Of a DNA stretch of 64,000 bases, positions 4,279 to 64,000 are shown in pieces. Every line of letters starts with the position of its first letter. Position 1 is the first letter of the stretch. The DNA comes from Candidatus Thiosymbion sp. Its GTDB lineage: Bacteria; Pseudomonadota; Gammaproteobacteria; Chromatiales; Chromatiaceae. The notes below the pieces were generated by a model, which worked only from the letters and a program-made list of their open reading frames with translations, was not told where the DNA came from and searched no databases. The position numbers and the translations under genes were made by a program. The stretch is taken from the NCBI GenBank assembly GCA_018435665.1, contig JAHDND010000051.1, positions 1 to 64,000 of the forward strand. Direction: 5' to 3'.

Positions 4279-4686
4279 ATGCGCCTGATGAACCGGTCCC
4301 TGACCACGTCTTTAGCGGTTGCCACCCTGTCGGGACTCCTGTCCGGCTCCGCCCTCGCCGTGACCAACGAGGATTTCAATTTCGACCATACCAGCGATCT
4401 GCTCCATGTCTGCTCGGTGCCCGTGGAGGCCCCGGAGCATGTCGCCACCGCCCTCGCCTGCACGGCGTTCCTGGAGGCCACCGTTCAGTATCACGATCTT
4501 TCCACCGCCCGGAAGAAAGGCAAGGCCCTGGTTTGCATTCCCAGCGGCGTTACCGTTGGGGACGTCCGCGGTATCTTCCTCGCATGGGGCGAACAGCATA
4601 AGAACGATAAAAAGTTAATGGCGGAACTGCCTGTCAATGGCGTGATGCGCGCCCTGTATATCAAGTATCCCTGTAAGCAGAAATGA
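4279..4686 (+). CDS. Secreted small protein of the Rap1a/Tai immunity-like family
   Basis: 135 residues with a clear signal peptide (about residues 1-27, ending SGSALA). The mature part has four cysteines (HVCSVP, ALACTAF, ALVCIP, KYPCKQK), which suggests two disulfides in the periplasm. Pattern and length resemble the Rap1a/Tai family, which includes immunity proteins against type VI secretion amidases, and the wider HdeA-like helical proteins. No amidase effector or T6SS gene is adjacent, so an immunity role is only one possibility; a general periplasmic helical protein is equally compatible. Confidence 0.62.
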   Translation: MRLMNRSLTTSLAVATLSGLLSGSALAVTNEDFNFDHTSDLLHVCSVPVEAPEHVATALACTAFLEATVQYHDLSTARKKGKALVCIPSGVTVGDVRGIFLAWGEQHKNDKKLMAELPVNGVMRALYIKYPCKQK

Positions 4687-4697
4687 ACCGCCTGTTT

Positions 4698-4768
4698 AAG
4701 AAACCGTCCATCAAGTTGGTTCTCGCCTAGTGAACGCGCCCGCCAAGAAACCGTCCATCAATTGGTTC
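4698..4768. repeat. Direct repeat pair, about 24 bp, 47 bp apart
   Basis: Two copies of AAGAAACCGTCCATCAA followed by (G)TTGGTTC, at 4698-4722 and 4745-4768, differing by one base. They lie between a secreted protein gene and a lipoprotein gene. GAACC at 4685-4689 can pair with the GGTTC closing the first copy. No ORF covers them. Confidence 0.75.
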
Positions 4769-4881
4769 GCGGATCGGGCAACAACCCCCCAGGGGCAAAG
4801 CGGGAAAGGATAACGGACGCTTTCTAACCACCACTTTTACGGCCCCCCGGGCCACGACAGCCTTTGGAGATCCCTGTGACC

Positions 4882-5112
4882 ATGAAAAAGACCCTTGCCG
4901 TTGGTATCTTGACCCTCTCCGCCCTGACCCTTGCGGGTTGTGGCACCACCACCGGGGAGCGCGCCGGCAGTGGCGCCCTCATGGGCGCGGCGGGTGGCGC
5001 CCTCATCGGTTCCCTCAGCGCCCAGGCCGGCGCGGGCGCCCTCATCGGTGCCGGTGCCGGCGCCCTTGGCGGTTACCTGTATGACCAGTACCAGAAGGGC
5101 AATATCGACTGA
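4882..5112 (+). CDS. Glycine-zipper lipoprotein
   Basis: 76 residues from ATG 4882 (MKKTLAVG), preferred over an upstream in-frame start at 4864 because it gives a clean lipoprotein signal peptide. The lipobox is LAGC with Cys at residue 20. The mature part is almost entirely Gly/Ala repeats (GALMGAAGGALIGS, GAGALIGAGAGALGG), a glycine-zipper segment like YmgG/Rcc01693-type outer-membrane lipoproteins, then a short polar tail (YDQYQKG). Predicted envelope protein of unknown detailed role. Alone on this strand between noncoding gaps. Confidence 0.85.
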   Translation: MKKTLAVGILTLSALTLAGCGTTTGERAGSGALMGAAGGALIGSLSAQAGAGALIGAGAGALGGYLYDQYQKGNID

Positions 5113-5270
5113 TGCCTGACAGGCCGGATCCCTTCCCAGCCTTTCGCATCGGCAGGGATCCGGTCGCTCCCGACCCGCTTGGCTTGACCCGCCGCTTTAC
5201 CCCGGTTCGGCAAACCCTCTCTCCTCCCCGGAGCCCGTGCCTTAGTCCCTAACCCCAGGAGTTCAGCGCC

Positions 5271-6272
5271 TTGAAGGGCTCAGCCAAACAGAATCCAGGA
5301 CCGGCGCTGTCGGTGATCATTCCCCTGATGGATGCCGAGAGGGGCCTGCAAGGTTTTTGGGACGAGCTTTATCCCTTTCTCAACAGCCTGAACCGTTCCT
5401 ACGAGGTGGTGTTCGTCGATCAGGGCAGCCTGGACCGCACCTCAACCCTTTTATATCAACAGCATAAGCTGTGGCCAGAACTGACTCAGGTCCTGCTGGC
5501 CCACGGCCGGGTTAGCGAGGATACCGCGGTCCTGGCGGGCCTCAAGGCCTGCCGGGGCAAAGCCGCCATCATCCTGCCCTTCCGCACCGGGGCACCATCC
5601 AAGGTGATCGCCCAGTTCCTCGACTCCCTGGATCTTGGGCACGACTTTGTCGCCGGCGCCACCTCGAGATCAGAGGGTTCAGGCTGGCACCGACGACTGT
5701 TTCAGGCGGAAACCTGGCTGAGAACGCGCGTGTCCGGGTTCAGGCTCAATGACCCGGATTTTGGGCTCTATGGTTACGATCGAAGCCTCATCACGACCTT
5801 GAACCAGGCGGGTGTCGGTCCCTTACCCGTACCCGAGGTACTTCCCGCCCTGGCCCTCAGTCTGGCGCTCAATCCGGAAGAGATAGCGGTTCCGGATATG
5901 CCAAAACCGGCCAGAAAATCCCCCTCGGGACGAATCGATCAGGCTTACCGCCATCTCCATCTCTTGTTTGGGGCCTCCAGATTGCCCCTGCGGTTATATG
6001 CCGTACTGTCCTTTGGGCTCGCCCTCCTGGCTTTTGCCTTGGCCTTAATCGTGGCGCTGTTCGGACTGCTGGTAGCGGACGCCGGCGTTGGCGGGATACT
6101 GCTGGGTCTGGTGCTGGCAAGCCATCTTGCCTTGGGCCTTGGGCTCTTCGCCCTCTATCTCGATCGCCTTCCCGGTGGCCTGGGTGGCGATGCTGGCTTT
6201 CAACTCAAGCTCCATTTGGCCCCAAGGGTGAACTTAGAGGGCGCCGCGACGGTAGCCAATCATCGAGGCTGA
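5271..6272 (+). CDS. Degenerate family 2 glycosyltransferase with C-terminal membrane segments
   Basis: 333 residues, TTG start at 5271 preceded by CAGGAG. The N-terminal GT-A fold resembles DPM/ArnC-type GT2 enzymes (ALSVIIPLMDAERGL, then YEVVFVDQGSLDRT). The usual VDDGS motif reads VDQGS, and the region where DAD or DxD should stand reads ILPFRTGAPSK, so the metal/nucleotide-sugar site looks lost. Two strongly hydrophobic segments follow at about residues 240-300, as in undecaprenyl-phosphate transferases. Likely a membrane protein derived from an ArnC-like transferase that has lost or changed its chemistry; a non-catalytic partner role is possible. No polysaccharide genes flank it. Confidence 0.68.
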   Translation: MKGSAKQNPGPALSVIIPLMDAERGLQGFWDELYPFLNSLNRSYEVVFVDQGSLDRTSTLLYQQHKLWPELTQVLLAHGRVSEDTAVLAGLKACRGKAAIILPFRTGAPSKVIAQFLDSLDLGHDFVAGATSRSEGSGWHRRLFQAETWLRTRVSGFRLNDPDFGLYGYDRSLITTLNQAGVGPLPVPEVLPALALSLALNPEEIAVPDMPKPARKSPSGRIDQAYRHLHLLFGASRLPLRLYAVLSFGLALLAFALALIVALFGLLVADAGVGGILLGLVLASHLALGLGLFALYLDRLPGGLGGDAGFQLKLHLAPRVNLEGAATVANHRG

Positions 6273-6330
6273 CGGAGTACCTGAAATCCGGTGCGAATGA
6301 TCTCCATGGCATCTGTCGCGAATGACTTCG

Positions 6331-6822
6331 CTATCTCGTGGCAAGTTCGCTCCTGAAACTGGTGATCAGAAGAAAGACGATACCGATGCTGATGGCGCTG
6401 TCGGCCACGTTGAAGGCGGGCCAGTGCCAGGTGCCAACATAGAAGTCGATGAAGTCCACCACCCGTCCGGTCTGGACGCGGTCGATGAGGTTACCGATGG
6501 CGCCGCCGATGACCAGGCTGAGGGCGGCGGCGGTGGCGCGCTCGCCCTTGTCCAGGCGCAGCAGCCAGAATGTCAGGGCCAGGGTCATGACCAGGGCGAA
6601 GCCGGCGAACAGCCAGCGCTGCCAGCCGCCGGCGTTGGCCAGGAAGCTGAAGGCGGCGCCCTCGTTATACATGAGGGTGAAGTTGAGCAGGGGCATGAGG
6701 GGCACGGGCTGGAAGGGCAGCAGCAGGGCCTCCGCCAGCCACTTGGTGGCCTGATCAAGGATGACGATCAGCAGCGATAGCCAGAGCCAGCGGGCCATGG
6801 TGGGGTGCGTGATGAGCTTCAT
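6331..6822 (-). CDS. lspA: Lipoprotein signal peptidase (signal peptidase II)
   Basis: 163 residues with four membrane helices. The two catalytic aspartates are visible in GNLIDRV and FNVADSAI, the family signatures. The enzyme cleaves prolipoproteins N-terminal to the diacylglyceryl-cysteine in the inner membrane. It lies 156 bases downstream of ileS on the same strand, the standard ileS-lspA order in proteobacteria. The gap between them contains a GC-rich hairpin of the type CCTCCCCC...GGGGGAGG. Confidence 0.96.
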
Positions 6823-6978
6823 CCCCCTCTCCCCAGCCCTCCCCCGCCAAGGGGGAGGGAGTTGTTCGTGAACCCTCTCCCATCATGGGGCAGGGGGTGA
6901 CGGGTGAACCCTTCCTCGTTAGAAGGGCGGGAGTGGTTTGTGGCTACCATCCCACCCTGGAAAGGGGGAAGAATCCCT

Positions 6979-9810
6979 TCAGGCATAGCGCCGCACCTCG
7001 CCAGGCCCGGCGACGTTGTCGACGCAGCGCCCGCACAGCTCCGGGTGCGCCGGATCGGCGCCCACGTCCGGGCGTAGGTGCCAGCAGCGCACGCACTTGG
7101 GGTGTTCGGACTTGCGCACCCGCACCGCCAGGCCGGCCAGCTCGGTGTCCTGGGCCTCGGCCGGGCGTTCCGCCAGGGGGTGGACCGGGGCGGCGGAGGT
7201 GATGAGGGCGAAGCGCAGCTCGTCGCCCAGGCGGCCCAGGGTGGCGGCCAGTTCCGGAGCGGCGTAGAGATCCAGCTCCGCGTCCAGGCCCGAGCCGATG
7301 AGCCCGGCCTGGCGCGCCGCCTCCAGGGGTTTGGCCACCGCTAGGCGTACCGCCAGGACCTGGTCCCAGAAGGCGCGATCAAAGGGATCGGCCGCATCCA
7401 GGGCGAACAGGCCCTGATACCAGGTGCCCAGAAAGACCGACGGCCCCCGCTCGCCCGGCAGGTAGCGCCAGATCTCGTCGGCGGTGAAGCTGAGGATCGG
7501 CGCCAGCCAGCGCACCATGGCCTCGGCAATGTGGTACATGGCGGTCTGGCAGGAGCGCCGCGGCAGGCCCTCGGTCGGGGTGGTGTACTGGCGGTCCTTG
7601 ATGACGTCCAGGTAGAAGCCGCCCAGGTCGACCACGCAGAAGTTGTGGATCTTCTGGTAAATCAGATGGAACTGGTAGTCGCGGTAGGCGGCGACGATCT
7701 CCTCTTGGAGTTGGTAAGCGCGGTCCACCGCCCAGCGGTCGAGCTCGATCATCTCCGCCGGGGCGACGAGGTTCACCGCCGGGTCGAAGCCGTTGAGGTT
7801 GGCGAGCAGGAAGCGCGCCGTGTTGCGGATGCGCCGGTAGGCGTCGGCGGTGCGCTTGAGGATCTCGTCGGAAACGCTCATCTCGCCGCGGTAATCTGTG
7901 GCCGCCACCCAGAGGCGGATGATGTCGGCGCCCAGGGTCTTCATCACGTCCTGGGGGCTGACCACGTTGCCCTTGGACTTGGACATCTTCTCGCCCTTGG
8001 CATCGACGGTGAAGCCGTGGGTGAGGACGCCCCGGTAGGGGGCGCGGTCGTACATGGCCACCGAGGTGAGCAGGGACGACTGGAACCAGCCGCGGTGCTG
8101 GTCGGAGCCCTCCAGGTAGAGGTCCGCCGGCGACCTCAGCCCCGCCCGCTTCTCCAGACAGCAGGCGTGGGTGACGCCCGAGTCGAACCAGACGTCCAAG
8201 GTGTCGTGGACCTTCTCATACTCCGCCGCCCCGGCGACGCCGATCAGGTCTGCCGCGTCCAGGGCGAACCAGGCCTCGACGCCCTGGGCCTCCACCCGCC
8301 GGGCGACCTCCTCGATCAGTTCCGGGGTGCGCGGGTGCAGCTCCCCGGTCTCCTTATGGACCAGCAGGGGAATGGGCACGCCCCAGGTGCGCTGACGGGA
8401 GATGCACCAGTCCGGGCGGTTGCGCATCATGGCCTCGATGCGCGATTGGCCCCAGTCCGGGGTCCAGGTGACGCCCTCGATTTCGCGCAGGGCGGCGGCG
8501 CGCAGGCCCTGCTTCTCCATGCCGATGAACCACTGGGGGGTGGCACGGAAGATGATGGGCGTCTTGTGGCGCCAGCAGTGGGGGTAGCTGTGGCTGAAGC
8601 GGAAGGCCTGGACCAGGGCGCCGCGGGCCTTGAGGGTCTCCACCACCTTGTCGTTGGCGGTGAAGACGTGCTCCCCGGCGAAGAGGGGGGTGTCGGGCAG
8701 GAAGCGGCCGTCGCCGCCCACCGGGTTGTCCACCGGCAGGCCGTAGCGGTTGCCGATGATATAGTCCTCCAGGCCATGACCGGGGGCGGTGTGGACGGCG
8801 CCGGTGCCGGCCTCCAGGGTGACGTGCTCGCCGAGGATGATGGGCACCTCCCGGTCATAGAAGGGGTGCTGGAGCTTGAGGCCCTCGAAGGCATGGCCCT
8901 GACCATAGGCGAGGACGCGGTAACGCTCGATGCCCCAGCGGTCCAGGGTGTCGCGCATCAGGCCCTCGGCCAGGATCAGGCGCTCGCGACCATGGTCGCC
9001 GTTGGTCTGGATGAGGACGTATTCCAGCTCGGGGTTTAGGGCCACCGCCTGGTTGGCGGGCAGGGTCCAGGGGGTGGTGGTCCAGATGACCACCGACAGG
9101 GGGCCCTCGCCGCGACCGTTGGGCACTGAGTGGCAACGGGTGAAGAGGGACTCCTCGTCCAGGACCGGGAAGCGCACGTCGATGGAGATGGACTCCTTGT
9201 CGGCGTACTCCACCTCGGCCTCCGCCAGGGCCGAGCCGCAGTCGATGCACCAGTGCACCGGCTTGTAGCCCTTGTGGACATGACCATTGGCCAGGATCAC
9301 CCCCAGGGCGCGGATGATGTTGGCCTCGAAGGCGAAGTCCATGGTCAGGTAGGGATTGTCCCAATCGCCCAGGACCCCCAGGCGCTTGAAGTCGCGACGC
9401 TGGCCGTCCACCTGGCGGGCGGCGTAGGCGCGGCAGGCCTGGCGGAAGGCGGCGGCGCTGATCTTGGCGCCGGGCTTGCCTTCCTTTTTCTCCACCTGGA
9501 GCTCGATGGGCAGGCCGTGGCAGTCCCAGCCCGGCACATAGGGGGCGTCGAGGCCGTCCAGGGTGCGGGATTTGATGATCATGTCCTTGATCACCTTGTT
9601 GACGGCGTGGCCGATGTGGATGTCGCCGTTGGCGTAGGGGGGGCCGTCGTGGAGGATGAATTGCTCCGCCCCGGCGCGGGCGGCGCGGATCTGGCCGTAA
9701 AGGTCCATGGCCTCCCAGTGGGCGAGCAGCTCCGGTTCCCGCTGGGCCAGGTTGGCCTTCATGGGGAAGCCGGTGTTGGGCAGGTTGAGGGTGTTCTTGT
9801 AATCGCTCAC
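6979..9810 (-). CDS. ileS: Isoleucyl-tRNA synthetase
   Basis: 943 residues, normal for bacterial IleRS. The class I signatures are present: HIGHAVNK near residue 67 and KMSKSKGN around residue 605. The large editing (CP1) domain lies between them. The C-terminus has a zinc finger (KCVRCWHLR, later CGRCVDN). It charges tRNA-Ile with isoleucine and edits valine. It probably heads the ileS-lspA transcript; a T-box is not expected in this group and none is seen upstream. Confidence 0.98.
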
Positions 9811-10004
9811 GGGGCTGAATCCTGAGGGGTACGGCGAGAAAGGAGGAAGTTTACCCTGTTTGCCGTGGCGCGGTTGAGTGGCGGTTTTTGATGCGGTTTA
9901 CGGCAGCCCGGTTAGTGTCCTGGCCGCTTTATCCTGGAAATTTGAGAGGCCACCGAGGCCGGGCGGTTAGTTCCTCCTCCGGCAGTGGCTCAAAACACAG
10001 CGGT

Positions 10005-11747
10005 TCATGATGTGAGCAGTCGACAGTGAATCTGATAGCCCTGGCGTCCGGCGGCCGGATCTGAGGTCAGCGTCACCCGAGCCCCCGCGAGGTCTGATAG
10101 CCATTGGAGATACGGACGGGGCGCGGAATCTGGATTATTGGGCCCCGCCGGGTGGCTGCTCCCCTCTAAAAAGACTACTGGCGATGAGTCGTGGGTTTGC
10201 ATGTGTAGCCGAATGTCTTTGCACCCTGCGCCAACCAGATGCTCGAGCAGGGTGGTCAGCAGGTCCTGGAAACGTTCGCGGTCCATGACCACCGACGGGG
10301 CTGAGGGGGGCTTGACCAGATCGACCTGCACCGCGTCTAAAAGCGGCCGTCGTGCGATACGGCCGAGCAGCCAGGTGTCGAAGTCGGTATCCTCCGTCAC
10401 CGCTCGAACACAATCCGCCAAGGTCTCCGGGGGGTGTTGGTGAGCGGCCAACCCGGCCGCAAGCACGTCCTGTAGATCCTCGGCCTGCCATTCCCGAAGG
10501 GGCTCGAAGCCCCGCACGAGGAGTTGGTAGTCCGTCAGGAGACGCTCGGCGCGACGGAGCAGACTGGGGTCCAGGAGCAGGCCCAGACCCTCGCGGTCAA
10601 AGGCCGTTTGCAGTCGCTCGATGACCCCGACGGCCTTGTGGGCCACCAGTATCGGGGTGGGCGACGCCTCGGCGCCTGCCTGGCTAAAGGTCGAGAATCC
10701 CTCCAGGAGTTGGTCGACCAGGTCGGCCCTGATCAGCCCCTGAAGCCGCGCTTCGGTGCCATCGACACCCAGTTCGGCCATCAGGTGAGACACCATGTAG
10801 AGTCGCCCTGCCATGATCCGGAAGAGCCGGCCCACCTCGGGCAGGGCCATCGCGGCTACATCCGCCAGCCGACGGGCACGCTCCGGGTTGAGCGCGGCGA
10901 TATCCCGCAACGGCCTGACGGCGTGCGCGACCTTGATGAGTGAGGCGCTGGCGACGTTGGGGGGGAGAGCCGGTCCATGACCAGGGCAGACGACACGGAT
11001 CCCCTCGCCGTCGATGATCTTTGTCATACCTGCCAGGGACCTGAGCAAGGCCTTTTGGTCCCAGCCGATCACCCCGGGCACGTTGGCGGCGAGCAGGAGG
11101 TCGCCGAGCAGCACCAGGTCGCCCAGACGCAGGCAGCAATGATCGGGGCTGTGGCCCGGGGTATGGATCAGATCCAGGGCGAGCCCCTCGACCCGCAAGC
11201 GTTGAACGACTAGCCCCGCCTCCCGCCAGGGTGCCGATTGCTCCAGCCGTAGCCCGTTCATGCAGTTCAGGGATCGGGGCCCCTCATCCTCACCCGCCGC
11301 CAGGAGGGGCAGGTCCACGTGCAGGGGCGGAAAGCTCAGTTCCAGGAGAGCCGCCTGGGTCTGGGCCAGATCGGCAGCAGTCAGGGCCCGGGCCCCCGCC
11401 GCTTGCACGGCCACCACCGTCAGTCGGCTATCCAGAAGTTCAGGCTGGGCGCAAAGGCCAATAAAGTGGTCGAAATGGGCGTGGGTCAGGAGCACCAGGA
11501 GGGGTCTGGGGCGTTCCCGCCTCAGTTCGCGGATTTGATCCGCCACCAGAGCCGCCTGCTCGGCCTGACCCCCGATATCGATCAGGATCAGGGCACGTGC
11601 GGTTTCGATGAGAAAGGCATTGGAGCACAGGCCAGAGAAGCGGGGGATCCAGGGGTAAAGGCGCGCCTCACCCCCGCCGGGCAGGGCTTGCCATTGTTTG
11701 GCAATCATTTCAGCAGGTTCGGAGGCAAAGACATCCAATTGATCCAA
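10005..11747 (-). CDS. Metallo-beta-lactamase-fold hydrolase with a C-terminal degenerate histidine-kinase-like region
   Basis: 580 residues, about twice the length of a simple MBL protein. The MBL domain covers about residues 25-290, with the metal motif HAHFDH at 89-94, then HTPGHSPDH, GDLLLAANVPG and CPGHGP, so it should bind two metals. Beyond about residue 360 a helical stretch with a DHp-like look (RRAERLLTDYQLLVRGFE) leads to a segment reminiscent of HATPase_c (MDRERFQDLLTTLLEHLVGA, later LQWLSDLAGARVTLTSD). The histidine-kinase ATP lid and G boxes are missing. Likely a hydrolase or sensor whose output is fused to a kinase-derived scaffold. Monocistronic; substrate unknown. Confidence 0.72.
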   Translation of the reverse strand: MDQLDVFASEPAEMIAKQWQALPGGGEARLYPWIPRFSGLCSNAFLIETARALILIDIGGQAEQAALVADQIRELRRERPRPLLVLLTHAHFDHFIGLCAQPELLDSRLTVVAVQAAGARALTAADLAQTQAALLELSFPPLHVDLPLLAAGEDEGPRSLNCMNGLRLEQSAPWREAGLVVQRLRVEGLALDLIHTPGHSPDHCCLRLGDLVLLGDLLLAANVPGVIGWDQKALLRSLAGMTKIIDGEGIRVVCPGHGPALPPNVASASLIKVAHAVRPLRDIAALNPERARRLADVAAMALPEVGRLFRIMAGRLYMVSHLMAELGVDGTEARLQGLIRADLVDQLLEGFSTFSQAGAEASPTPILVAHKAVGVIERLQTAFDREGLGLLLDPSLLRRAERLLTDYQLLVRGFEPLREWQAEDLQDVLAAGLAAHQHPPETLADCVRAVTEDTDFDTWLLGRIARRPLLDAVQVDLVKPPSAPSVVMDRERFQDLLTTLLEHLVGAGCKDIRLHMQTHDSSPVVFLEGSSHPAGPNNPDSAPRPYLQWLSDLAGARVTLTSDPAAGRQGYQIHCRLLTS

Positions 11748-60729: not shown

Positions 60730-61731
60730 CTATCCGGTTGTTATCCCAGATTCCCAACTTACGCCAAGCTGATAGGCGCCGAGGCCAAAGGTCGTGCTCT
60801 TGCCAGCGTGGACCCATTGCCCATGCCAGAGGAGAGGCCAGAGTGACGCAAGCCCGGGACCAGACAACTCGAAGGTGCCCAGGAGGCCACCCAGTTCCAT
60901 CGCGGTGCTTTGGCGGGAGGAATATCGGGTCCACTCGTGCCAATGCAGGCGCGCGTGGGACAGCACCAGCGACTGCGACTGCGCCGCTGGATAAAGCCTC
61001 GGCCAGTCCAGCGGCTCCGGGTTTCCGCCATGATGGCTAGCCAGCAGGCGCAGCCGCCCGACCAGGTTGAACAGAAAATCCTCGGGGGTGAAGCGCTCCG
61101 GGCCGGTGAGGTGGCCGTGCCGCTTCAGACGCAGGGGCGTGAGTAACCGCACCTGGACCCGCTCCGGCACGGCGGGCAGGACGGTGGCCGCCAGCGACAG
61201 CGGCACATAGCGCCCCTCTGCCGCGCTATAGACCGATCGCCAGTCGTCGCTACCCGGGGCCGCTTCCTGGTCCAGGCCGACGACGGCGAACCGCCCCTGC
61301 TCCCGGCCCAGCCCGCGTTGACCGGCCAGTTGCAGGGCATGGATCAGGTAGGGCACCTGGCGGATGGCCTCGCCCAGCAGGGTCACGCCCAGGGTGAGGG
61401 GGTCCCCGGGGGCATGGTCCCGCCCGGCCCGGGGGTCGATGCCGAGCAGGTAGGGGCGCGGTGGCGCGGCAAAGCGCCGCCCCCCCTCACCCGACGGCGC
61501 CGGTGGCTCGAAGAGCCGGGTATAGGTGCAGTGCGTCTGCAACAGGCAGCCGTCGCAGGTGCGGGCACGGGTCACGCAGGCCGCCTGGCGCAAGGCATGC
61601 CCCAGCACCCCGCGCCACGCGGAGCCGGCGTAGGGCGGCAGACGGATCGGGTCCAGGGCCTGCATGCGCGCCCGCAGGCGAATCAACGGCGGCATGAAGG
61701 GGGTTGAGAACTCCTCTACGCATGCGTCCAT
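60730..61731 (-). CDS. cas6: CRISPR pre-crRNA endoribonuclease Cas6 (RAMP superfamily)
   Basis: 333 residues from ATG 61731, which has GGGAG at good spacing; an upstream ATG at 61737 or 61755 lacks it. The C-terminal glycine-rich RAMP loop HAGKSTTFGLGAYQL and the two ferredoxin-like folds fit the Cas6 C-terminal family. A Cys cluster near the N-terminus (CVTRARTCDGCLLQTHC) is common in Cas6 proteins found with type III systems. It should cut CRISPR repeat RNA. Last gene of the leftward cas block, 184 bases after cas2. Confidence 0.85.
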   Translation of the reverse strand: MDACVEEFSTPFMPPLIRLRARMQALDPIRLPPYAGSAWRGVLGHALRQAACVTRARTCDGCLLQTHCTYTRLFEPPAPSGEGGRRFAAPPRPYLLGIDPRAGRDHAPGDPLTLGVTLLGEAIRQVPYLIHALQLAGQRGLGREQGRFAVVGLDQEAAPGSDDWRSVYSAAEGRYVPLSLAATVLPAVPERVQVRLLTPLRLKRHGHLTGPERFTPEDFLFNLVGRLRLLASHHGGNPEPLDWPRLYPAAQSQSLVLSHARLHWHEWTRYSSRQSTAMELGGLLGTFELSGPGLASLWPLLWHGQWVHAGKSTTFGLGAYQLGVSWESGITTG

Positions 61732-61915
61732 GGTCATCTCCCAGAAATTGGCCAAAGAAAGCCGACGATTTCACCGCATCGCCGTGCGGATAGGATACTG
61801 CCCCCGCCAGGTGGAGCTGACATAACCCCGCGTCCAATGGGCCGGATAATGCCACCTTCCCTCCCCAAGGCCGTCGGACTGGACCGCACTGGCGGGCAGC
61901 GCATCAGCGCGAGCG

Positions 61916-62278
61916 TCACGGCTGAGCCTCGCTGCCCAGCGCGCCACCTGGGCGGGCCTGCCCCACCAGGGCACCCAGCCGATCCCGGTCCTCATCGCCG
62001 ATCAGCCGCACCCCTTCCGGCAGGAACTGGCGCCCATAGTGCTCGGCGTCCAGATGCCCGGGCAGGGGGTAGACGCGGATATCGTCCTCGCGCTGGTCGA
62101 TGATCCGGTCCAGATCCCGCAACAGATCCTCCAGCCCGGCGGGGGTGTTGAGAATCAGAAAGACGGAATACTGCAACGCCAAGCCGCGTTGACGGACCTG
62201 GCGATGGACCTTGACCAGGCGCTTGGGATTGGCGATGTCGTAGGCCAGCAGGAAGAGTTGCGGGGCATGGATGGCCAT
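61916..62278 (-). CDS. cas2: CRISPR-associated protein Cas2
   Basis: 120 residues, ferredoxin-like fold. The start AIHAPQLFLLAYDIANPKR has the conserved Asp at the end of strand 1, followed by VKVHRQVRQRGLALQYSVF. It ends in a Gly/Ala-rich tail. Cas2 forms the central dimer of the spacer-integration complex with Cas1. It follows the Cas1-like gene by 93 bases and precedes cas6 on the same strand. Confidence 0.92.
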   Translation of the reverse strand: MAIHAPQLFLLAYDIANPKRLVKVHRQVRQRGLALQYSVFLILNTPAGLEDLLRDLDRIIDQREDDIRVYPLPGHLDAEHYGRQFLPEGVRLIGDEDRDRLGALVGQARPGGALGSEAQP

Positions 62279-62371: not shown

Positions 62372-63232
62372 TCAGGTCTCGTGGATCAGCCAGCGGTGCA
62401 GGCTGCCGGTGATCTCGCGGCCATGGTGGGCGGCCCGGCTGGCCTTGCTCTCGAACAGGCGCACCACCTCGGCGTGGACCGCTGGCCGCAGGGGCTCCCC
62501 TTTGTCCTCAGCCGCCAGCCAGCGCCGCCGCAGCCATCCCAGGCGCACCGGCTCCAGGTACCACATCATCAGCCCCGACAGATCGCGGGCCAACGCCGGG
62601 GCGCCCACCTGTGCCAACTCGGTGTTCGCCCCCAGCCCCAGGTCCTGCAAATGGGACTGCATCCAGCCATGGGCGATCCCCCGCAGCCATTGGCGGCAGC
62701 GGCCCTCCTCGCGCTCCCCGACATAGCGCACGGCCCGCGCCCGGAGGTGAGCCCGGCACGCCGCCGGCTCCCACTCGCCAAGGGGCACGTTCAAGCGGGC
62801 GCCGGCCCACCGGGCCACCCGCTGCTCATAGCTCAGCCGCCAGTGCTCATAGCGCCCGAGGGCCTGGGGGAGCAGCAGAAAATCCAGCAGGCGACCGGCG
62901 AGATCGTCCACTCCGCCCGGGTGGCCCAGTAGCCGCGCCACCACTTCGCCTACCTCGTCGACGAAGAGCACCCCGATGCCCTGGCGGGCGCAGGCCAGCA
63001 GGGCCTCGGTGGACCAGCGAGCCGCCTCGGTGCAATGGATGCGCGACAGCCGGCGCAGGGGGAAGAGCTGCTCCGCCTGCTCCCCGCGCTGCACGCACAG
63101 GGCGGGGCCATCCAGGCAGACATGCGTCTCCGCCCCCGGGGCGATGTAGAGCGGCCGGGCATCGGCGGCCAGCGGCGGCAAGGGGCGCGTGGTGCCCGTG
63201 GGCCGCGCGCGCTTGGTAGTGGTGACGATCAT
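62372..63232 (-). CDS. Cas1-like protein lacking catalytic residues
   Basis: 286 residues from ATG 63232, which overlaps the stop of the upstream cas1 (ATGA). The N-terminal beta domain is Cas1-like: RPLYIAPGAETHVCLDGPAL, LFPLRRLSRIHC, ALLACARQGIGVLFVDEVGE. The helical C-terminal domain is divergent and shorter. The GVEGAAAAAYF-type glutamate region is missing and the GFFHDLDHG histidine position reads GANTELAQVG. Only the last acidic position (ALARDLSG for LACDLVE) remains. Predicted not to catalyse integration; probably a structural partner of Cas1 and Cas2. Confidence 0.8.
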   Translation of the reverse strand: MIVTTTKRARPTGTTRPLPPLAADARPLYIAPGAETHVCLDGPALCVQRGEQAEQLFPLRRLSRIHCTEAARWSTEALLACARQGIGVLFVDEVGEVVARLLGHPGGVDDLAGRLLDFLLLPQALGRYEHWRLSYEQRVARWAGARLNVPLGEWEPAACRAHLRARAVRYVGEREEGRCRQWLRGIAHGWMQSHLQDLGLGANTELAQVGAPALARDLSGLMMWYLEPVRLGWLRRRWLAAEDKGEPLRPAVHAEVVRLFESKASRAAHHGREITGSLHRWLIHET

Positions 63233-64000
63233 GCTCCCTCCTGCAGGAAGGCGGATTGGCCCCGACCCGCCAACACTTGGGCCAGGCGGTTCGTCAGACG
63301 GCGCAACAGGCGACGTTGCGGCCGGGCAAAGGGCTCGAAGCCAGTATAAAAATGCTCGCGGCCGGCCTTGCCGAGCAGGCAGGATTCCCCCGTTTGCTCG
63401 AAGTGATCGGCGGTCAACTGGCGCTCGCGAAACAACGACCAGACCCAGAGGTCCACCCAAGGCCGCAAGGGCTCCACCAGGTCGCAGGCCAGGGACTCCC
63501 GCCCATGGTCCAGGTCATGGAAAAAGCCGATCAGCGGGTCCAGGCCGGCGTTATGGCAGGCACGCACCGCCTCGAAGTGCACCAAGGTATAGGCCAGCGA
63601 TAGCACGGCATTGACCGGGTCCCGCGGCGGCCGGCGGTTGCGACCGCTGAAGTTCAACGCGGGGGGAAAGAGCGCGGTCAGGGCCTGAAAATAGGCCGCC
63701 GCCGCCGCGCCCTCCACCCCGCGCAGGCTCTCCAGGCTCAGGCCCGGGTCACCGGCGAGATGGCTCAGGGCCTGATTCAGCCGCTCCAGGCCGACCGTCA
63801 AGGACCGATGCTCATCCGGCCGCGCCTCCCGCGCCTGGCGCAACAGGCGCGCCTGGCCCTTGAGCTTGGCCCGCACCAGCAACCGCGACCACCGGCGGCG
63901 CCAGTCCCCGTCCACGTAGGCCCGATACTGGCCGATGCGCCGCGCGGCGTCCCCGTGTCCCTTGCCATGGATCAGGGCGATGGCCCCGCCAAAGCGGCCG
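63229..64000 (-). CDS. cas1: CRISPR-associated endonuclease/integrase Cas1 (N-terminus beyond window)
   Basis: 256 residues are visible; the gene enters from the right edge. The frame is open to 64000 and the first residues seen (ALIHGKGHGDAARRIGQYRA) are still Cas1, so the GTG at 63915 is internal. All three metal residues are identifiable: Glu in GVEGAAAAAYF, His in GFFHDLDHG and Asp in LACDLVEPLRP. NFSGRNRRPPRDPVNAVLSL is the family signature. It should integrate spacers with Cas2. Its stop overlaps the start of the second Cas1-like gene, so the two are made in a coupled way. Confidence 0.93.
   Translation of the reverse strand, partial: GRFGGAIALIHGKGHGDAARRIGQYRAYVDGDWRRRWSRLLVRAKLKGQARLLRQAREARPDEHRSLTVGLERLNQALSHLAGDPGLSLESLRGVEGAAAAAYFQALTALFPPALNFSGRNRRPPRDPVNAVLSLAYTLVHFEAVRACHNAGLDPLIGFFHDLDHGRESLACDLVEPLRPWVDLWVWSLFRERQLTADHFEQTGESCLLGKAGREHFYTGFEPFARPQRRLLRRLTNRLAQVLAGRGQSAFLQEGA

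Follow-up and report, generated by a model that had tools for sequence, protein, structure and literature searches.

The canonical spacer integrase of CRISPR systems is a heterohexamer in which two Cas1 dimers sit on a Cas2 dimer, with the repeat channel lined by the inactive Cas1 subunits and the active ones placed at its ends (PMC8102632, PMC12259127). That such C2-symmetric integrases must insert spacers one way round has been raised as a problem (PMC12259127). The type III-A locus of Methylobacter sp. KS41 has been described as having "two copies of cas1/cas2" (PMC6119699).

The stretch of DNA analysed here (the window) makes up the first 64000 of the 68128 bases of contig C201, from a genome of 5.0 Mb in 263 contigs. 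Read along the minus strand, the gene order of its adaptation module was found to be a CRISPR array, a lipoprotein-like ORF, cas2A, cas1A, cas1B, cas2B and cas6 (Table 1). The preliminary description of this DNA had reported two Cas1-fold genes overlapping by ATGA and followed by cas2 and cas6, an arrangement that was confirmed. The second cas2 gene and the array lie beyond the window and were not visible at that stage. With cas2A, the idea of a heteromeric Cas1 widens to that of a four-part integrase. Cas2A and Cas2B belong to separate families, the former with a QKS motif and the latter with QYS. The small lipoprotein-like ORF, which carries a PT repeat, occupies positions 4571-5125 of locus L003 (C201:64571-65125), between the degenerate last repeat of the array and cas2A. 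No Rfam match was obtained around the module. It is proposed that the products of the module assemble into a hetero-oligomeric spacer integrase that works for a type III-A system, with Cas1A as the catalytic and Cas1B as the non-catalytic protomer, probably on a core of Cas2A and Cas2B, and we regard this reading as reasonably likely.

Table 1. Features of the adaptation module. Coordinates are positions in the window unless given with the contig name.
Feature	Position	Strand	Description
cas2A	C201:64218-64502, beyond the window	-	Cas2, 94 aa
cas1A	63229..64000 in the window; whole gene C201:63229-64200	-	Catalytic Cas1, 323 aa; first codons outside the window
cas1A stop/cas1B start overlap (ATGA)	63229..63232	-	
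cas1B	62372..63232	-	Cas1-fold protein, 286 aa; catalytic Glu and His absent; proposed non-catalytic protomer
Cas1B N-terminal beta domain	62921..63157	-	Residues 26-104; strands of the predicted structure
cas2B	61916..62278	-	Cas2, 120 aa, QYSVF motif
cas6	60730..61731	-	333-aa CRISPR RNA endoribonuclease; a TTG at 61755 is an alternative start

The Glu-His-Asp metal-binding triad of a catalytic integrase is present in Cas1A (E163/H228/D240), where it is kept in 85 of 85 aligned loci, whereas Cas1B lacks it: the GxEG motif is absent from all 85 aligned Cas1B proteins. Alignment of Cas1B against Cas1A with hhalign (probability 99.5%, E 3e-21, nearly the whole protein aligned) showed that the Glu segment and the RPP-DPVN stretch are deleted. 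In the column aligned with the His, the window protein has Gln, and just two of the 85 Cas1B proteins have His, while the column aligned with the Asp contains Asp both in the window protein (D217) and in 66 of 85 relatives. The match of Cas1B to Pfam Cas_Cas1 was limited to residues 35-104 (32.5 bits, E 7e-8). The residues had been read in the same way in the preliminary description, which had the upstream protein retaining Glu, His and Asp and the downstream one missing the Glu segment and the His, and the profile-profile alignment placed no intact Glu-His-Asp triad in the second protein. The most divergent quartets were those of two Acidobacteriota loci (L171 and L172), in both of which Cas1B is without the Glu segment. 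As judged by eye, Cas1B of L171 seems still to possess the His, in a GL..GIIH context, although its Glu segment is gone, and for this reason these two sequences suggest that the Glu segment was lost first and the His later.

The AlphaFold2 model of the window Cas1B, built with 76 natural sequences, reached a pLDDT of 90.3, with strands at residues 26-101 and helices at 111-285. Comparison of this model with the PDB gave 149 matches at E<=0.001, the best 50 of which were all Cas1 entries or Cas1 complexes, including those of E. coli; the structural alignments span both domains with TM-scores of approximately 0.3-0.6. A search of PDB sequences with Cas1B returned chance matches only. The predicted structure is thus that of a Cas1 fold with a different angle between the domains and a shortened helical domain, and it bears out the earlier suggestion of a retained N-terminal domain followed by a reduced helical one. 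In locus L062, cas1A and cas1B are in frame, and a single-chain model of Cas1A-Cas1B that ignores the stop codon separating them had a pLDDT of 86.7 and a pTM of 0.59. This pTM was judged to be somewhat above what two unplaced halves would probably give and is only suggestive of contact between Cas1A and Cas1B. Residue covariation between the two proteins showed no enrichment for the pair of N-terminal domains, the 66 effective sequences being too few.

The set cas2A-cas1A-cas1B-cas2B was complete in 88 of 96 loci from Gammaproteobacteria, Betaproteobacteria and Acidobacteriota, these 88 including a few genomes present in two collections (e.g., L034/L077, L036/L075, and L037/L116). The 96 loci consist of the best 80 of 304 relatives found by searching species genomes with a Cas2A alignment, together with 16 from a class search. 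Of the other eight, five run off the end of a contig, and the remaining three are decayed, with a truncated Cas1A in L067, no Cas1 of either kind in L107 and only Cas2A in L113. The commonest type of junction between cas1A and cas1B is a 4-nt overlap (32 of 88 loci). Methylotuvimicrobium buryatense 5G and Thiocapsa sp. KS1 are among the carriers. One rearranged quartet was seen, with the order cas1A-cas2A-cas1B-cas2B (L090). Later strong Cas2A matches, in Acidobacteriota and further Gammaproteobacteria, mostly lay within the four-gene set. Weak Cas2A matches in Acidobacteriota (below approximately 65 bits) were rejected, being ordinary loci without Cas1B. Genome contigs searched with a single Cas1B sequence gave no match, while the Cas2A alignment did succeed as a query; no relatives were found on viral contigs and no Cas1B on plasmids. 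The genome survey for the same gene pair that had been called for thus returned a four-gene set, and its recurrence in 88 loci argues that the pairing of Cas1A with Cas1B is due neither to chance nor to decay.

Among the four proteins, Cas1B has diverged furthest, with a mean identity of 29% compared to 42% for Cas2B, 49% for Cas1A and 56% for Cas2A. Such fast divergence, together with two broken copies of cas1B (a stop codon in L059 and a frameshift in L101), could be taken to indicate that it is a functionless, decaying duplicate. We hold this to be highly improbable given a dN/dS of about 0.19 in close pairs, the intact gene in 86 of the 88 loci, the conserved N-terminal domain and the confidently predicted fold. 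Median dN/dS was 0.19 for Cas1B and 0.21 for Cas1A and approximately 0.2 for all four genes, these figures being taken from close pairs since the values over all pairs are saturated. A pseudogene without conservation, against which the preliminary description had also cautioned, was rejected on the selection and conservation data, which show that the Cas1B family is conserved and subject to purifying selection. The divergence is concentrated in one part of the protein. Mean pair identity in the N-terminal domain was 0.423 for Cas1B vs. 0.442 for Cas1A, and in the C-terminal domain 0.23 for Cas1B vs. 0.51 for Cas1A. The N-terminal domain of Cas1 is the dimerisation domain of the family. A dimerisation domain that is kept under purifying selection while the catalytic domain drifts makes Cas1B look like a structural partner.

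The distance matrices of the four proteins agree with one another (Mantel r 0.80-0.87; best permutation 0.18), the top pair being Cas1A-Cas1B. Synteny and co-inheritance demonstrate a functional linkage of the four proteins and not their contact. These data also bear on the idea that Cas1B joins Cas2B in a complex of their own that is not an integrase, for example for DNA capture or as a competing decoy, apart from Cas1A and Cas2A. The position of cas1B next to cas2B, through junctions equally tight as those between cas1A and cas1B, is what such a complex would predict. However, the four genes co-occur and co-evolve with Cas1A-Cas1B as the best correlated pair, and cas2B stays beside cas1A where cas1B has been lost (L137 and L213), so that a separate complex appears improbable.

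These two loci consist of cas2A-cas1A-cas2B with an intact Cas1A and no cas1B; in a third (L211), cas1B is missing and cas1A is broken. L137 is on the Sphaerotilus sulfidivorans plasmid NZ_CP035707.1, where the triple (8986-10693) adjoins BREX genes and an array of three repeats is found. In L213 (G151:C34:3000-12356) the triple lies at 6110-8016, the catalytic motifs of Cas1A are present, and no array was found in the sequence examined. In a tree of Cas1A the family forms one clade against other Cas1 proteins (SH-aLRT 99), within which both L137 and L213 are nested (the smallest starred sets containing them have SH-aLRT 98), and because of this nesting they are most simply explained as secondary losses of Cas1B. 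Some lineages can thus do without Cas1B, although L137 is the only one of the two loci that has an array. The earlier suggestion of a dedicated non-catalytic subunit stands as regards the absent triad, the conservation and the purifying selection, and is qualified by the loss of Cas1B in these two lineages.

Loci without Cas1B are also what would be expected if Cas1B were an accessory or regulatory subunit. A homodimer of Cas1A with one or both Cas2 proteins would then be the integrase, and Cas1B, perhaps with Cas2B, would limit, target or process prespacers, a role like that of Cas4, DnaQ-like or RT domains in other systems. The diverged C-terminal domain of Cas1B could carry such a new role, and an unsystematic inspection of modules revealed no neighbouring cas4 or RT gene. 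However, the strongest conservation in Cas1B is found in its dimerisation domain, a pattern more in keeping with a dimer partner than with a peripheral factor, and loss is rare, with two intact loci lacking Cas1B as against 86 with an intact copy. An accessory function is accordingly viewed as rather unlikely.

The array adjoining the cas1 and cas2 genes, as is characteristic of a CRISPR adaptation module, contains 41 repeats of 36 nt and 40 spacers with a mean length of 34 nt, and the module is the only source of Cas1 in this genome. The identical 36-nt repeat occurs on contig C149, together with a type III-A operon encoding cas10, csm2, csm3, csm4, csm5 and three CARF proteins; the assignment to type III-A is thus supported by the operon itself, and the two contigs are linked by their common repeat and not by one continuous sequence. 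Both the HD and the GGDD motifs were seen by eye in this cas10. The three CARF proteins of the operon (L136, 137-11311) are different, being of the PD-(D/E)XK, HEPN and CARF5 types, and the operon is accompanied by an array of this same repeat. Every effector recognised near the relatives is of type III-A or III-B: among the 88 loci, 24 were III-B, 15 III-A and one mixed, with none recognised in the sequence examined for 48. Arrays of at least three repeats adjoin the module in 47 of the 88 loci. The repeats of these 47 loci nearly all have the 3' end GGGATTAAGAC, or one close to it, across phyla, with a variable 5' half. In five further genomes that were searched, the module was again the only Cas1 source; two of these, G122 (a single contig) and G275 (a complete chromosome), have 54 and 32 repeats beside it, respectively. 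As the sole source of Cas1 in searched genomes that have arrays, the module can presumably build them, and no catalyst other than Cas1A would then be available, the less likely alternative being that the arrays predate the loss of another module. Spacers common to related strains, which would be a sign of recent acquisition, were not found except in one genome that is present twice.

In the hetero-oligomeric integrase proposed above, the catalytic sites would be contributed by Cas1A, and Cas1B would serve as its permanent non-catalytic partner through the N-terminal dimerisation domain. The central dimer would be formed by the two distinct Cas2 proteins, as Cas2A-Cas2B. We infer for the complex a stoichiometry of approximately (Cas1A-Cas1B)2-Cas2A-Cas2B, which would have no two-fold symmetry. 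It would be the Cas2A-Cas2B core that removes the two-fold axis and that could fix polarity, which is the most speculative step. Put in its strongest form, with Cas1A-Cas1B heterodimers on Cas2A-Cas2B as an asymmetric integrase, the polarity of insertion (i.e., which end meets the leader) would be set by the subunits and not by the PAM or a processing factor; this is put forward tentatively, as a possibility that we hold with less than even confidence. A four-part integrase, if true, would help to explain how a normally symmetric enzyme achieves correctly oriented insertion. The split between catalytic and non-catalytic subunits, and likewise the Cas2 pair, would then lie on separate genes, so that each position could be mutated alone, which is impossible in one-gene systems. 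It would also be of relevance to type III systems, in which spacer acquisition is less well understood.

Some of this module has been encountered before. Cas1B matches (E 1.7e-12) a PADLOC profile, PDLC01185, whose description is "Cas1, diverged variant, second in the loci", and the presence of this profile in PADLOC-DB means that the gene had already been seen by curators. The description fits the position of cas1B directly after the catalytic cas1, and relatives match it as well; the match is full-length in some lineages and covers residues 33-144 only in the window Cas1B, and no mechanism is stated. The two-copy locus of Methylobacter sp. KS41 is very likely the same module, as one of the loci collected here (L070) is from that organism. 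Its report remarks on the copy number, with the loss of the active site, the gene order and the conservation left undiscussed (PMC6119699). Beyond the library profile of Cas1B and this copy-number remark, no functional account was found in the open-access literature, to which the search was confined, nor any description of the inactivation of Cas1B, the conserved quartet or its mechanism. The Cas6-RT-Cas1-Cas2 proteins of type III systems are similar in being an adaptation module attached to type III, but in them a single type of Cas1 chain is joined with RT and Cas6, a fusion that is not present here (PMC8102632). With the canonical Cas1-Cas2 integrases of E. coli type I-E and P. aeruginosa type I-F (Cas1-2/3), the likeness is that Cas1A is an ordinary catalytic Cas1 and that those systems have active and inactive protomers within each homodimer. 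They differ in that the canonical systems employ one cas1 and one cas2 in a C2-symmetric complex, whereas the module described here has two of each, with one Cas1 that has lost its active site.
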